Origin: Tunturibacter empetritectus
GTDB taxonomy: Bacteria; Acidobacteriota; Terriglobia; Terriglobales; Acidobacteriaceae
Reading direction: 5' to 3'
Assembly (NCBI RefSeq): GCF_040358985.1
Contig: NZ_CP132932.1
Span: forward strand, 4,154,001 to 4,218,000
Length of the DNA: 64,000 bases
Part shown: piece after piece, positions 1,303-14,729 of the stretch
How the letters are laid out: each line of letters opens with the position of its first letter
Numbering within the stretch: position 1 is the first letter of the stretch
Notes under the pieces: generated by a model
The model's database searches: none
What the model was told of the DNA's origin: nothing
Seen by the model: only the letters and a program-made list of their open reading frames with translations
Program-made: the position numbers and the translations under genes

Positions 1303-1325
1303 AACGCGACCAACGGGAGCAAAAG

Positions 1326-1378
1326 GGTATACCCGCCACGAAGTGGCCGCCTCGCGCGCAGCGGGCCCGTCCGGCAGG
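1326..1378 (+). repeat. 53-bp dispersed palindromic repeat, family A, copy 1
   Basis: This 53-bp element has same-length relatives at 5428-5480 and 11719-11771. It starts ggtatac and ends gtccggcagg. It contains two small hairpins: GCCAC-GAA-GTGGC, and a second 5-bp stem around the loop GCGCA. Compared with the other copies, the first stem carries a paired T-A to C-G exchange. It lies just downstream of the protease gene. Confidence 0.85.
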
Positions 1379-1502
1379 TTCCTCCTTCTCTTATACAAAG
1401 AGCATGAATCCCCCGCGCTCGACGGCGACTCTAAGCCCTAGCTCGAACCATCTGCAATCAATCGACCAAGCGATCGCACAACCGCTCTCATGGAGAATTA
1501 AC

Positions 1503-5289: not shown

Positions 5290-5427
5290 TCAGCGCTGTC
5301 CTCATGGCACTTAGACGTAGTTCAAACAAAAAACAAATCACATTTTTTTATCGCGCAGCTAGCATCTGGAAGCAAGTCATCACACCGACCAAAGGGAGGA
5401 CCCAAGCAGTTAATCCTCACCAAACAA

Positions 5428-5480
5428 GGTATACAAGTCACGAAGTGACTGCGCCGCGCGCAGCGGGCTCGTCCGGCAGG
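5428..5480 (+). repeat. 53-bp dispersed palindromic repeat, family A, copy 2
   Basis: Second copy of the element at 1326-1378, again exactly 53 bp from ggtatac to gtccggcagg. The first hairpin is GTCAC-GAA-GTGAC. The second keeps four of five pairs around the GCGCA loop. It lies between the start of the pilT-like gene and the end of cbtA. Confidence 0.85.
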
Positions 5481-5495
5481 ACATAGCATTTAGCA

Positions 5496-6206
5496 TTACC
5501 GACGCGGCAACTCCCGCTCCGTCAGCCACCCAAATCCCAAACCGAGCGCCCCCCAAAGCACCGCCTGAATCTCCACCGCCGCCACGCGAAACTTCCACAT
5601 CAGCGTCACCGGAAACCCCGCCGGGACCTCATCCACCTCCGGCAAAAAGTGCGCCACTCCACTCACCACCACCACAAACAAACCAGCCGCCAGCAGGGAA
5701 CCATTCCACTCCCCAAACCGCCGCGCCAGCCGCCTCCGCATCTGCAACGAGAACACCATCGCCGATATCGAAACAGCAATTAGCAAAAAGTAAGCCCCGG
5801 TTCTCACCCCAATCGTCTCCGCACTCCCCACCGCCGGAGGATTCGCCGGATACTTCAACTGAGGCACCAGCACAATCGCCACAAACCCAAGCCCAGCCAG
5901 CACAGCCGCGAGCGCCCGCGGCCCCAGCCCCCCAATCCGCCCATAAGCAAACGCGAACACCAGCCCAAACAACCCACCCACCGCCGCACCATAAACCACC
6001 GCACCGGTAAGCAGCCCGGCACTCTTCTGCACACGGCGGCTCACCATCTCAGGCTCAGGAGCCTCGCCCTTGGCCTGATCCGCAGCCGTCTCAAACGCAA
6101 TCGCGCGCTCAACCTGCGGCTCGCCAATCCATCGTGCAAACGCAAAGACGAGCAGGCCCGCAACAACGCCCACCAGCATCCCGCGAAGGAGCAGAGTTCG
6201 AGTCAT
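5496..6206 (-). CDS. cbtA: Predicted cobalt transporter subunit CbtA
   Basis: A 236-residue integral membrane protein with about five or six hydrophobic segments, starting LLLRGMLVGVVAGLLVF. It matches the CbtA family, predicted to carry cobalt with the small subunit CbtB. It follows cbtB on the same strand with a 240-bp gap that holds a hairpin repeat. The ATG at 6206 is used; TTG at 6209 is adjacent. A cobalamin riboswitch upstream of cbtB supports the cobalt/B12 role, which is family-based and not experimentally general. Confidence 0.85.
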   Translation of the reverse strand: MTRTLLLRGMLVGVVAGLLVFAFARWIGEPQVERAIAFETAADQAKGEAPEPEMVSRRVQKSAGLLTGAVVYGAAVGGLFGLVFAFAYGRIGGLGPRALAAVLAGLGFVAIVLVPQLKYPANPPAVGSAETIGVRTGAYFLLIAVSISAMVFSLQMRRRLARRFGEWNGSLLAAGLFVVVVSGVAHFLPEVDEVPAGFPVTLMWKFRVAAVEIQAVLWGALGLGFGWLTERELPRR

Positions 6207-6281
6207 CAAAATCTTCTGCCCGGAGCGCGTCGCTCGCAGTTATAGGTGTGGATTTGGAACATCGACTAACCCCTATGACTC

Positions 6282-9942: not shown

Positions 9943-10407
9943 ATGAAGCGTTTCTCAAAAACAATATTCGGATTCTTGACTGTGATCGCCGTCCTGGGCG
10001 GCGGGTTGCAATGTCTCATCTGGTGGGGTCGATCCACGCCGTCACACCCCAAGAACTTGCCAACCAACGCAGTCTGGTTACGGCCTCCTACGGTAGTATT
10101 CGATTTCACTAGACGGGGCAACTGGGTTGGATGCAGTGTTGAGAGTCAAAATAATCGATGCGTAGTGACAGACGCTCGTGGCAACGTCGAGTACGACGAC
10201 CTCTTTTTGCCTATCGAGGGTATTGGTCCTGTACGGAAAGAACGACTCATTTACAGCGTAAGGAATTCCGGTTGTCTATGGGTCTATTTGAACCTAGGCA
10301 AGAAGAATGTTCCAGTCATTCACCTTCAGGATGGAACAGTTCTTCTCCCTCTGGAGGGTTATAACGAGTTGAAAAATTGGCTGGAAAAGATCGGGTCAAA
10401 TTGTTGA
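9943..10407 (+). CDS. Hypothetical membrane-anchored protein
   Basis: I do not recognise this 154-residue protein. It has a basic N-terminus and one hydrophobic segment (about 9-28), so it is probably an inner-membrane-anchored or exported protein with a periplasmic domain. The C-terminal half is predicted to be strand-rich (YLNLGKKNVPVIHLQDGTVLL). Base composition is lower in GC than the neighbouring MFS and glycosyltransferase genes. Its 3' end overlaps the predicted start of the next gene by up to 31 bp. Confidence 0.55.
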   Translation: MKRFSKTIFGFLTVIAVLGGGLQCLIWWGRSTPSHPKNLPTNAVWLRPPTVVFDFTRRGNWVGCSVESQNNRCVVTDARGNVEYDDLFLPIEGIGPVRKERLIYSVRNSGCLWVYLNLGKKNVPVIHLQDGTVLLPLEGYNELKNWLEKIGSNC

Positions 10408-11591
10408 ATGGTCGGCTCGATGTAATTCTCAAACTCTCCGCCTGGTTCATCGCACTCCTGTGGATATGGAAGGCCCTCACCTCCGCCGTCGGCCTCCGCC
10501 GCGTCCCCGACCTCACCACACCAGCTCACAATCGAACCCCACCTGATCGTCCCTCCATCGCCGTCATCATCCCCGCCTGCAACGAAGAAAAAAGCATCGC
10601 CGCATGCCTAACCTCTCTTCTCCAGCAGGACTACGCCGCCCTCCACCTCATCGCCGTCGACGACCGCTCCACCGACTCCACCGGCGCAATCATCAACGCC
10701 CTTGCCACCCAACATCCAGCTAAGCTCACCGCCCTCCGCATCACCGAACTCCCCACCGGCTGGCTCGGCAAAACCCACGCCATGGCCTTCGCCGCCCGCC
10801 ACGCCATCTCCCTCCACCACCCCGACTATCTCCTCTTCACCGACGCCGACATCTTCTTCCGCCCCGAGACCCTCCGCCTCGCGCTCGCCCAAACCGTCAC
10901 CACTCAGGCGGACCACTTCGTCCTCCTCCCCACCGCTACCATCAAATCCGCAGGCGAGGGCATGCTCCTCAGCTACCTGCAGGTCATGAGCCTCTGGGCC
11001 GTTCGCACCTGGCGCATCTCCGACCCCAAAGCCCTCCGCGACGCCGTCGGTGTAGGAGCCTTCAACCTCCTCCGTACTACTGTCTATCAGCAACTAGGCG
11101 GCTTCGAAGCCCTCCGCATGGAGATCGTCGAAGACCTCGCCCTCGGCACCCGAATCAAACGCCAGGGCTTCCGTCAGCGCATCGCCACCGGCCCCGGATT
11201 AGTCAACGTGCACTGGGCCAGCGGCGTCTCTGGCATCCTCAACGGCATGACAAAAAACTTCTTCGCCATCTTCCACTACAACCCCGCCCTCGTCCTTCTC
11301 TCCTGCCTCTCGATCACAGTCTTCTGCATAGCTCCCGTCTTCTTCGTCGCCCTCCCAAACACCCGCATCGCGGCGATTATTACTCTCGCCTCTGTAGCAC
11401 TCCTCTACGTTCTATCCAGCCGCAAGAGCAGAGTGTCCCCCTGGTACGCCGTTCTCTTTCCGGTTAGCGCCGCGCTCATCGTATCCTCCATCCTCCGTTC
11501 CATGCTCACCACCCTCAAGCAAGGCGGCGTCACCTGGCGTGGCACCTTCTACCCCCTCTCCGAACTCCGCAAGAAATCATCGCCCCGCTAG
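10377..11591 (+). CDS. Family 2 glycosyltransferase, membrane-associated
   Basis: About 404 residues. A hydrophobic N-terminal segment is followed by a GT-A domain: IAVIIPACNEEKSIAACL, the VDDRSTDST nucleotide-binding motif, the metal-binding DAD (LLFTDADIFF), and EIVEDLALGTRIKRQG near the catalytic region. Three or four C-terminal transmembrane helices follow. It resembles hopene-associated (HpnB-like) and other polyisoprenoid or lipid glycosyltransferases. The start is uncertain: TTG at 10377 opens the frame, and TTG codons at 10401 and 10404 are alternatives. The acceptor is unknown. Confidence 0.75.
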   Translation: MAGKDRVKLLNGRLDVILKLSAWFIALLWIWKALTSAVGLRRVPDLTTPAHNRTPPDRPSIAVIIPACNEEKSIAACLTSLLQQDYAALHLIAVDDRSTDSTGAIINALATQHPAKLTALRITELPTGWLGKTHAMAFAARHAISLHHPDYLLFTDADIFFRPETLRLALAQTVTTQADHFVLLPTATIKSAGEGMLLSYLQVMSLWAVRTWRISDPKALRDAVGVGAFNLLRTTVYQQLGGFEALRMEIVEDLALGTRIKRQGFRQRIATGPGLVNVHWASGVSGILNGMTKNFFAIFHYNPALVLLSCLSITVFCIAPVFFVALPNTRIAAIITLASVALLYVLSSRKSRVSPWYAVLFPVSAALIVSSILRSMLTTLKQGGVTWRGTFYPLSELRKKSSPR

Positions 11592-11718
11592 GTGCGTATT
11601 GGAATTCTGCTTTTGCTCAGGGGCACGGTTCCAGCCGTATCTTAATTTCAACAAATGTATCGAGCAGTCAACTCTTTCCGACCAACGGGAGGACCAGGCC
11701 GGTCCCCTCATCAAGACC

Positions 11719-11771
11719 GGTAGACACGTCACGAAGTGACCGCCCTCCGCGCAGGAGGCCCGTCCGGCAGG
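11719..11771 (+). repeat. 53-bp dispersed palindromic repeat, family A, copy 3
   Basis: Third 53-bp copy. The first hairpin is GTCAC-GAA-GTGAC. The second is CCTCC-GCGCA-GGAGG, where two base pairs differ from copy 1 with pairing kept on both. It lies 127 bp after the glycosyltransferase gene. The rest of the gap to 11960 shows nothing beyond a possible leader for the next gene. Confidence 0.85.
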
Positions 11772-11959
11772 ACGTTTCACCGTTGTCTCGTCCGCCTTTC
11801 GCACTAACGGGAAATCGAATTCCACAATTCTGCAACGAAGTGCATCCTCCTGAATTGTTTTATGAATTACAGCTAAACATTCCCGGTCATTGGGAATCTG
11901 CTCAACATCGGTGCACGTATGCGTGATGTACCACTAGAAATAAACTTTCCAGGAGCAAC

Positions 11960-12511
11960 ATGAAAAAGCCAGCGATGATCGTCTGTGGCCTCGCACTCGC
12001 GATGCTATCCTCTGCCTCGGCATTCGCCGATACGTTCTTCAACTTCAGCTTCACAGGAAACAGTAGCGTTACCGGACTTCCCGGTACACCCTTCTCCGGC
12101 TCTGGCCAGTTCGACGCCAAGGCCACAACCACCGCCGGCACATACAGGATCGTCGGCGTAACCGGCACGACCGACGGCGAAGCAATCTCCAGCATTCTTG
12201 CCCCGGGCAGCTTCGGCTTCAATGACAACCTTCTGTTCTTCTCCAGCGGAAACACCTCCGCTTCGCTCGACAACGCGGGCGTCTCCTACCAACTGGCGAA
12301 CGGCGTTGACGCCAATCTCTTCCTGGGCATTCCTTCGCAGTATCAGCAAAGCCTCTTCGGATTTCCAGGCAGTCTTGTCAGCGAAGATCAAACCGCGAAC
12401 GTGAGCATCACTCCGCTGGTCTCTGCAGTTCCGGAGCCAGCCACGTTCGCACTTTTGGGCACCGGTCTTCTGGGAATGATCGGTGGACTCCGCCGTAGAA
12501 TCATCGCCTGA
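11960..12511 (+). CDS. PEP-CTERM sorting-domain protein
   Basis: A 183-residue exported protein with a clear signal peptide (cleavage near SASAFA-D, residue 23) and a C-terminal VPEPATFALLGTGLLGMIGG helix ending in RRR. This is the PEP-CTERM sorting signal handled by exosortase. The middle is Gly/Ser/Thr-rich and strand-like, as usual for such matrix or surface proteins. The ATG at 11960 follows ccaggagc. Exosortase is not in the window. The PEP-CTERM call is firm, the function unknown. Confidence 0.9.
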   Translation: MKKPAMIVCGLALAMLSSASAFADTFFNFSFTGNSSVTGLPGTPFSGSGQFDAKATTTAGTYRIVGVTGTTDGEAISSILAPGSFGFNDNLLFFSSGNTSASLDNAGVSYQLANGVDANLFLGIPSQYQQSLFGFPGSLVSEDQTANVSITPLVSAVPEPATFALLGTGLLGMIGGLRRRIIA

Positions 12512-14205: not shown

Positions 14206-14282
14206 GGCCCGGTAGCTCAGTTGCATAGAGCAGCGCACTCCTAACGCGAAGGTCGGCAGTTGGACTCTGCCCCGGGCCACCA
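14206..14282 (+). tRNA. tRNA-Arg(CCU), non-canonical
   Basis: A 77-nt cloverleaf with encoded CCA. The 7-bp acceptor stem (ggcccgg / ccgggcc), 4-bp D stem and 5-bp T stem (ggcag / ctgcc) are all perfect. The loop ctcctaa gives anticodon CCU for AGG. Three features are odd: the D loop has G18-C19 instead of GG; the T loop is TTGGACT, with G at position 56 instead of C; and the anticodon stem has G27-A43 and A31-C39 mismatches. The 19-56 change keeps complementarity. It may be a functional variant or a decaying gene. Confidence 0.8.
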
Positions 14283-14405: not shown

Positions 14406-14434
14406 TTGTCCGGAATATTTATCTGATCTATACT
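14406..14434 (+). promoter_or_regulatory. Predicted sigma-70-type promoter of the cob operon
   Basis: TTGTCC (14406-14411) and TATACT (14429-14434) are 17 bp apart. Transcription would start around 14441, exactly at the 5' edge of the cobalamin riboswitch. TTGACA at about 14374 has no good -10 partner. Confidence 0.6.
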
Positions 14435-14440
14435 CGAAAC

Positions 14441-14612
14441 TGTTTCCGGTGGTTGCTTCAGAGAAGCCAACCAAAAGGGAATCCGGTGAGAGTCCGGAAC
14501 TGCCCCGCAGCGGTAATCAGGAACGAAAGCTCCAACAAGAGCACTGGTCTATTAGTGGACTGGGAAGCTGGAGCGATTAGGTAGCCTGTAAGTCCGAAGA
14601 CCTGCCGCAAAC
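14441..14612 (+). ncRNA. Cobalamin riboswitch upstream of the cob operon
   Basis: A full-length class I element. It contains ccggtggttgcttc, then aagggaatccggtgagagtc, then aactgccccgcagcggtaa (the core), a variable arm, and agtccgaagacctgcc at the 3' end. A small hairpin (gtgtccatagcggacac) and a GC-rich leader follow before cobG at 14730. Binding of adenosylcobalamin should reduce expression of the downstream genes. Confidence 0.93.
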
Positions 14613-14729
14613 AGTGTCCATAGCGGACACAATGACACACGCCTCCGAGGGGAAGGCCGGGTGGCCGCAGCCTATTCCGTCGCTGCGTTCCCGACCATCT
14701 TGCGGTGACAGGTCAAGAGAGAAAGTCGC

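Follow-up and report, generated by a model that had tools for sequence, protein, structure and literature searches.

A three-hairpin repeat family in Edaphobacter read as REPIN-like mobile DNA

Three copies of a 53-bp repeat lie in the window, the whole stretch of 64,000 nucleotides analysed here, and their stems change on both arms at once. The initial annotation took selection on structure as the simplest explanation, as in a mobile RNA element, a terminator-like element or a conserved small RNA. We examined the extent of the unit, its pairing and its spread.

Extent, half types and distribution of the repeat

The sequences at 1326-1378, 5428-5480 and 11719-11771 (copies 1, 2 and 3) were as first described. 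The two-arm change in hairpin 1 (H1) was borne out: copy 1 has GCCAC/GTGGC, whereas copies 2 and 3 have GTCAC/GTGAC. In hairpin 2 (H2), copies 2 and 3 covaried around GCGCA (C-G versus T-A and G-C versus C-G), and the reported CCTCC/GGAGG pairing was present in copy 3. The first description lacked a T.G wobble in H2 of copy 1. It also lacked a third hairpin (H3), GTCC-GGCA-GGAC, which was damaged in copy 1 and intact in the other two. The copies had been given the same length and the same ends. They were real, but their coordinates were too narrow. The conserved head CGACCAACGGGAG, or a near-match, began 19, 42 and 40 bp upstream of copies 1, 2 and 3, respectively, and the element terminus was GGACA, damaged in copy 1. 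A complete half-unit measures about 72-100 bp and contains three hairpins; the 53-bp unit is its outer portion.

We derived a covariance model of 60 nt (R1) from 51 copies in the window's genome. At E ≤ 1 it found these three copies in the window and no other (75.0, 80.1 and 82.8 bits); since copies 1 and 3 were among the 51 training copies, only copy 2 was an independent test there. All three half-units are on the plus strand. Copy 1 (1306..1381) has a short head (shortened type A). Its H1 (GCCAC-GAA-GTGGC) is at 1335..1347, its H2 with loop GCGCA and one wobble at 1349..1366, and its damaged H3 (GTCC-GGCA-GGTT) at 1369..1380. It sits 3 bp behind the stop codon of an M48-type peptidase gene (58-1302), and this site was also filled in two other genomes (G002 and G014). 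Copy 2 (5385..5483) has a long, type B-like head, with H1 (GTCAC-GAA-GTGAC) at 5437..5449, H2 at 5451..5468 and H3 (GTCC-GGCA-GGAC) at 5471..5482; 12 bp separate its outer end from the stop codon of a minus-strand gene (5496-6209). Copy 3 (11678..11774), with a long type B head, was located between the co-directional genes 10377-11591 and 11960-12511. Its H1, H2 (CCTCC-GCGCA-GGAGG) and H3 are at 11728..11740, 11742..11759 and 11762..11773. Rfam models also placed a tRNA gene (14206-14279) and a cobalamin riboswitch (14430-14623, 116.8 bits) on the plus strand of the window.

The exact core pattern occurred 212 times in the window's genome, G000 (105 forward and 107 reverse), and the reversed control did not occur. 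The repeat is far beyond chance. The half-unit ran from the head CGACCAACGGGAG to the sharp end GGACA, after which the next three positions were random (108 halves). Type A heads were short and type B heads long. In type C, H1 was replaced by GGCGTGCGAACGCC after an A-rich stretch, and in the direction of transcripts entering via the tail this half read GGCGTTCGCACGCCTTTTT, a terminator-like hairpin with a U-tract. We sampled 126 stretches picked around copies (418 kb, 8.5% of the chromosome contig). They held 188 halves, namely 88 B, 65 A, 26 C and 9 unclassed. Head-to-head inverted dimers of 167-235 bp numbered 49 (18 AC, 17 AB, 8 BB, 3 BC and 3 others). The remaining 90 of the 139 units were single halves, an upper figure because diverged partners were missed.

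Copy number was patchy among 17 genomes selected for carrying copies. Besides the window's genome, exact cores numbered 276 in G028, 206 in G032, 203 in G025, 179 in G014, 91 in G002, 70 in G029 and 66 in G005, with only 1-3 in G001, G006, G021 and G023. R1 found diverged copies missed by the exact cores, 19 in G006 and 17 in G021. Under strict filters, with which weak matches are lost, R1 matched 25 of 61 genomes (the window's own included), all 25 within the 37 of the genus and none among the 24 outside it. Under similarly strict filters, 9 of 200 genomes drawn from the family matched, and 3 of these (G107, G164 and G219) belong to two other genera. Judged by these matches, the family is also present in two other genera, in diverged or single-copy form. 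Loci with the gene adjoining copy 1 were compared in named genomes; 4 of 45 had an R1 match, all in E. lichenicola, and the other 41, some incomplete at their ends, had none. G164 held 55 exact cores of a diverged version, apparently without H3, and several of its copies (L169, L174, L179 and L185) passed from H2 into a T-rich stretch. The single copy in G219 lay near the 3' end of a gene that looked amidohydrolase-like by eye.

Stem pairing and loop sequences

Of the 749 stem cells in the window's genome, 98.8% were paired (734 Watson-Crick and 6 G-U, with 3 A-C and 6 other). Cells changed on both sides numbered 68 against 19.3 in shuffles that ignore descent, a value reached by none of 500. 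The 5 pairs with two-sided change were not unusual (reached by 133 of 500 shuffles), and the 11 pair types were fewer than the shuffles' 13.0. The cross-genome alignment comprised 111 matches at 71 loci, some overlapping, from other genomes of the genus and family, with 103 distinct rows. Here 98.1% of 1455 cells were paired, and two-sided change occurred in 13 of 15 pairs. The two-sided cells numbered 188 against 36.5 in shuffles (0 of 500), in an alignment that was fitted to the model and with shuffles that again ignore descent. H3 was near-constant at home and covaried between genomes (GTCC/GGAC, GGCC/GGCC and GCGC/GCGC, loop GGCA). G-U pairs took up 37 of the 1455 cells, 13 of them in one pair. 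Conserved structure was strongly supported, and the proposed selection on structure was supported.

Two-sided changes alone are no proof of selection, because template switching and exchange between copies also make them. Inter-copy exchange, in-place inversion and replication template switching can each yield two-arm changes. Template switching has been proposed as a source of compensatory changes in the portion of PMC8794818 that was accessible, and such changes are called common in REPINs in the accessible text of PMC3116915. Within-genome compensatory changes are by themselves no evidence for RNA.

The head-to-tail strand carried the consensus loops c-GAA-g, c-GCGNA-g and c-GGCA-g. Only the count of the H2 loop was unbiased, because the H1 and H3 loops were required or preferred in the copy searches. 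The H2 loop was GCGNA in 170 of 173 cases and was inverted in none, so loop sequence and orientation look selected. Loops of the d(GCGAAGC) and d(cGNNAg) types are unusually stable in DNA. The consensus c-GAA-g and c-GGCA-g loops fit these motifs. GCGAAGC is given as a stable DNA loop motif in the available part of PMC10527192, and cGNNAg in that of PMC9969394. Since G-U pairs were rare and the loops resemble stable DNA loops, DNA hairpins fit better than RNA. The few wobbles also fit RNA made from both strands.

The suggestion of an RNA element or small RNA was not upheld by the loops, the few G-U pairs or the comparison with Rfam. The unit in the window had no match at the gathering score in Rfam 15. 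Across six loci at E ≤ 5, two matches overlapped the unit, both below the gathering score (mir-81, E 4.9e-5, 34.6 bits versus 54.5; Bp1_684, E 3.9).

Mobility, gene context and rival explanations

Mobility, which had been raised for an RNA element, was supported for the repeat because dimers occurred at unrelated sites, sites were empty in relatives and copy number was patchy. The dimer of one locus matched elements at many other places in several genomes, across the same stretch of about 195 bp and with up to 92% identity. At the L069 site, gaps without the element measured 3, 28 and 22 bp (G033, G024 and G063), and gaps with it 177-224 bp in six genomes; 30 loci were examined, and 21 without one of the two genes in place were left uncounted. 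No target duplication was found, as none of 49 dimers shared 3 bp (0.76 expected) and one shared 6 bp. The dimer flanks had no extra palindrome in the target.

The bases at +4 to +8 beyond the end preferred YCTTT. Of 188 flanks, 53 had CT at +5/+6 (background 5.5%), at an offset picked after the composition had been seen. The pyrimidine motif looks like target choice because it did not differ between transcribed and untranscribed sides (T 0.41 at 119 ends versus 0.39 at 55). For the same reason, the idea that a U-tract reflects selection for termination was rejected. TnpA-REP of E. coli and Stenotrophomonas cuts at CT according to the accessible part of PMC8266576, and by this analogy the CT near the ends hints at related chemistry. 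Searches with one exact pattern and one dimer gave no match for carriage by phages or plasmids. A source gene was sought in few-copy genomes, and the neighbours found did not look like a mover. In G023 (L086) and G001 (L090), a dimer lay directly behind the same gene, terminase large subunit-like by eye.

These results suggest that the repeat is probably the outer portion, with three hairpins, of one arm in a non-autonomous REPIN-like mobile DNA with a putative HUH-like mover. The mobile unit would most likely be the head-to-head inverted dimer of about 180 or 195 bp (range 167-235). A putative single-strand nuclease, HUH-like and acting in trans or since lost, would recognise the hairpins in single-stranded DNA and then copy or move the dimer. 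Pairing of the stems would persist because copies that pair are the only ones to spread, with template switching and the swapping of hairpin alleles among copies contributing. Survival would be best for insertions behind stop codons, and a dimer there could serve as a 3'-end or terminator element. The 90 single units are more than mobility of dimers alone predicts, although diverged partners were missed. Counting against mobile hairpins, four single halves folded little or no better than shuffles on both strands (z -2.04 to +1.74). The best of them was copy 2, for which three of four tests had 6-8 equally good shuffles out of 200. The whole dimer folded far better than shuffles (z about -18), as expected of any long inverted repeat.

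It is somewhat unlikely that DNA template switching and inter-copy exchange were the main source of the two-sided changes, with individual copies under little selection, but several observations point that way. A few H2 alleles were common among 70 distinct 18-nt blocks (the top eight made up 28, 14, 13, 11, 11, 9, 9 and 8 of 188 rows), and the common ones were paired in the inner four positions. At a shared site (L061), the right-hand cores of G000 and G032 differed in both H2 arms (CCTCC/GGAGG versus CCCAC/GTGGG) and otherwise at two positions in 60 nt. At window copy 1, and likewise at L057, both sides of the H1 pair differed from genome to genome. At L063, short and long heads were swapped between G000/G032 and G025/G014/G002, as if the middle of the dimer had been inverted in place. 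Switching can invert loops, yet no H2 loop was inverted; switching within a strand need not do so, according to the portion of PMC8794818 available. Copy number and placement would be left unexplained by such switching. An identical H2 allele in both halves was rejected as a rule, since it occurred in only 10 of 49 dimers against 5.5 in mispaired sets (26 of 1000 reached it). Canonical REPINs mobilised by a RAYT, a Y1 transposase, are very unlikely here. They would fit inverted dimers behind stop codons, the lack of a target duplication and the CT near the ends, and RAYT genes were present in some copy-bearing genomes (G000, G003, G025, G032 and G061). However, PF01797 had no match at E ≤ 0.001 in the copy-rich G002, G014, G028 and G029. 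NF047646 at E ≤ 1 had none in G014 and G029 and gave only weak values in G002 (E 0.605), G028 (E 0.11) and G005 (within 0.11-0.61); G005 had one strong PF01797 match. G012 and G036 had RAYT genes and no R1 match. R1 found no copy at any of the 39 Y1 loci examined (34 genes when told apart by position, flanks of about 1.5 kb where the contig allows), a minority of the Y1 matches, most others being outside the locus set. By eye, the consensus also had no GTAG tag at a hairpin foot. A RAYT link, looked for with these two families and at the 39 loci, was not found. No known mover can be assigned, because no Y1 gene examined was flanked by copies and several copy-rich genomes had no detectable one. 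Two Y1 transposase-like (RAYT) genes of the window's genome (G000:C1:464378-464632 and 617956-618234) had no copy of the present repeat in their flanks of about 1.5 kb. A DDE-type MITE with terminal inverted repeats is extremely improbable. It would share the inverted ends, the length of about 195 bp and the high copy number, but the missing target duplication, arms made of three paired hairpins and heads swapped between genomes at one site all argue against it.

We consider it unlikely that the elements are chiefly bidirectional 3'-end or terminator elements useful to the host, with pairing kept by selection on transcripts and spread secondary. Gene context was taken from a home-made gene model. 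The dimers lay in 20 convergent, 18 co-directional and 6 divergent gaps, with 5 at an edge and none inside genes; element-free gaps were convergent in 19, co-directional in 110 and divergent in 32 cases. Convergent gaps were enriched, as they held 20 of the 44 placed dimers but made up only 19 of the 161 element-free gaps (Fisher p 3e-6), which favours a terminator, and divergent gaps were not significantly depleted of dimers (p 0.39). An end lay within 16 bp of a stop codon in 33 of the 44, and both ends did so in 12 of the 20 convergent dimers, again in its favour. Placed tails (n = 179) faced a stop codon in 118 cases and a start in 61; 86 of the 118 were within 25 bp, most commonly at 6-7 bp (30 of 86). 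Rare G-U pairs would also be expected if both strands were transcribed. The type C half, with GGCGTTCGCACGCCTTTTT toward transcripts entering through the tail, fits this role as well. Convergent and co-directional gaps scored as terminators in at least one direction in 18 of 19 cases with a C half and in 17 of 96 without. On the other side, neither type A nor type B has its own U-tract, the pyrimidine motif is independent of transcription, and in 8 co-directional dimers with a C half the upstream gene was faced by the A half in 5 and by the C half in only 3.

Sites common to several genomes were compared. In the convergent gap L063, five genomes had the dimer filling the gap and no other terminator, and a bidirectional terminator was present in 13 of 13 intact gaps without the dimer; G028 had both dimer and terminator, and of the 30 loci examined 11 without the second gene adjoining were uncounted. 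The five filled genomes, however, probably derive from a single insertion event. At L071, 4 filled gaps had no terminator, but only 13 of 20 unfilled gaps had one in at least one direction and 3 in both; 3 of these 20 exceeded 1 kb, L258 and L265 hold an element remnant, and 6 further loci were uncounted. At L069, none of 3 unfilled gaps had a terminator, and one filled gap (L221) scored inside the element. At this last site in G002 (L222), both H3 were lost and TCTTT or TTTAT now adjoins H2; it looks like a decaying copy becoming a plain terminator, and the terminator scan gave no score. In the window's genome, gaps with an element had a terminator outside it in 8 of 57 convergent and 7 of 58 co-directional cases; for element-free gaps the figures were 4 of 14 and 19 of 80. 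Genome-wide, terminators are only somewhat rarer in element gaps, and the difference is small. Of the early suggestion of a terminator-like element, the terminator-like hairpin of the type C half and the terminator loss beside the element at one locus held up; elsewhere the case was weaker. A terminator role is plausible at individual loci, and at some sites the element may have replaced the gene's normal transcription stop signal. It is quite unlikely that hairpins spread without any known transposase, via single-stranded DNA with template switching or gene conversion, that dimers act as bidirectional terminators of convergent genes and that swappable heads tune termination. REPIN-like mobile DNA remains the reading that we prefer.

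Comparison with known systems

Intrinsic bidirectional terminators share with the element a hairpin between convergent stop codons, and the type C half has both hairpin and U-tract. In contrast to them, the elements are repeated and look mobile, and their A and B halves lack a U-tract.

A repeat in Acidobacteria is shared with TIRYT, the TIR families of acidobacterial Y1 genes treated in the accessible part of PMC3733652. There, TIRYT repeats flank Y1 genes, some share GGGGWSAS, and one Koribacter TIR belongs to a repeat family. The present repeat, with no R1 match at the Y1 loci, was set apart from them by description. The CGTC-tagged REPs of the same portion of PMC3733652 also form head-to-head dimers and have no dedicated transposase known. 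They have one stem of 8-9 bp starting with AT pairs and a CCA-like tail, whereas the present stems are 4-6 bp long and CGTC overlaps that of H3. By eye, the unpaired tag, the single AT-first stem and the CCA-like tail were absent from the consensus. Acidobacteria are not among the five CGTC phyla given in that portion of the paper.

The element resembles REPINs and BIMEs, as far as the accessible parts of PMC3116915 and PMC3733652 describe them. Shared features were many intergenic palindromic copies, head-to-head dimers, compensatory changes, positions behind stop codons in convergent and co-directional gaps, and uneven numbers between related genomes. The high-copy intergenic palindromes in head-to-head dimers that mark REPs and REPINs were thus found here, with 90 of 139 units as single halves. 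Theirs is one palindrome of 20-40 bp, whereas the half here is about 72-100 bp with three hairpins. The element also differs in having three types of head (A, B and C), one of them bearing a terminator-like hairpin, and no linked RAYT was found. By eye, the GTAG/GTGG tetranucleotide at the palindrome foot was absent from the consensus, which was drawn from 30 A-type and 19 B-type halves. No earlier description of this repeat family was found in the parts of the open-access literature covered.

On sequence grounds, we read the repeat as a REPIN-like mobile DNA family in Edaphobacter with a new, larger, modular build. REPIN-like mobile DNA would thereby extend to a three-hairpin modular design in Acidobacteria. 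It would be another case of REPIN-like repeats without a linked RAYT, and CGTC-REPs pose the same question. Sites common to Edaphobacter genomes make the replacement of terminators by repeats directly testable.
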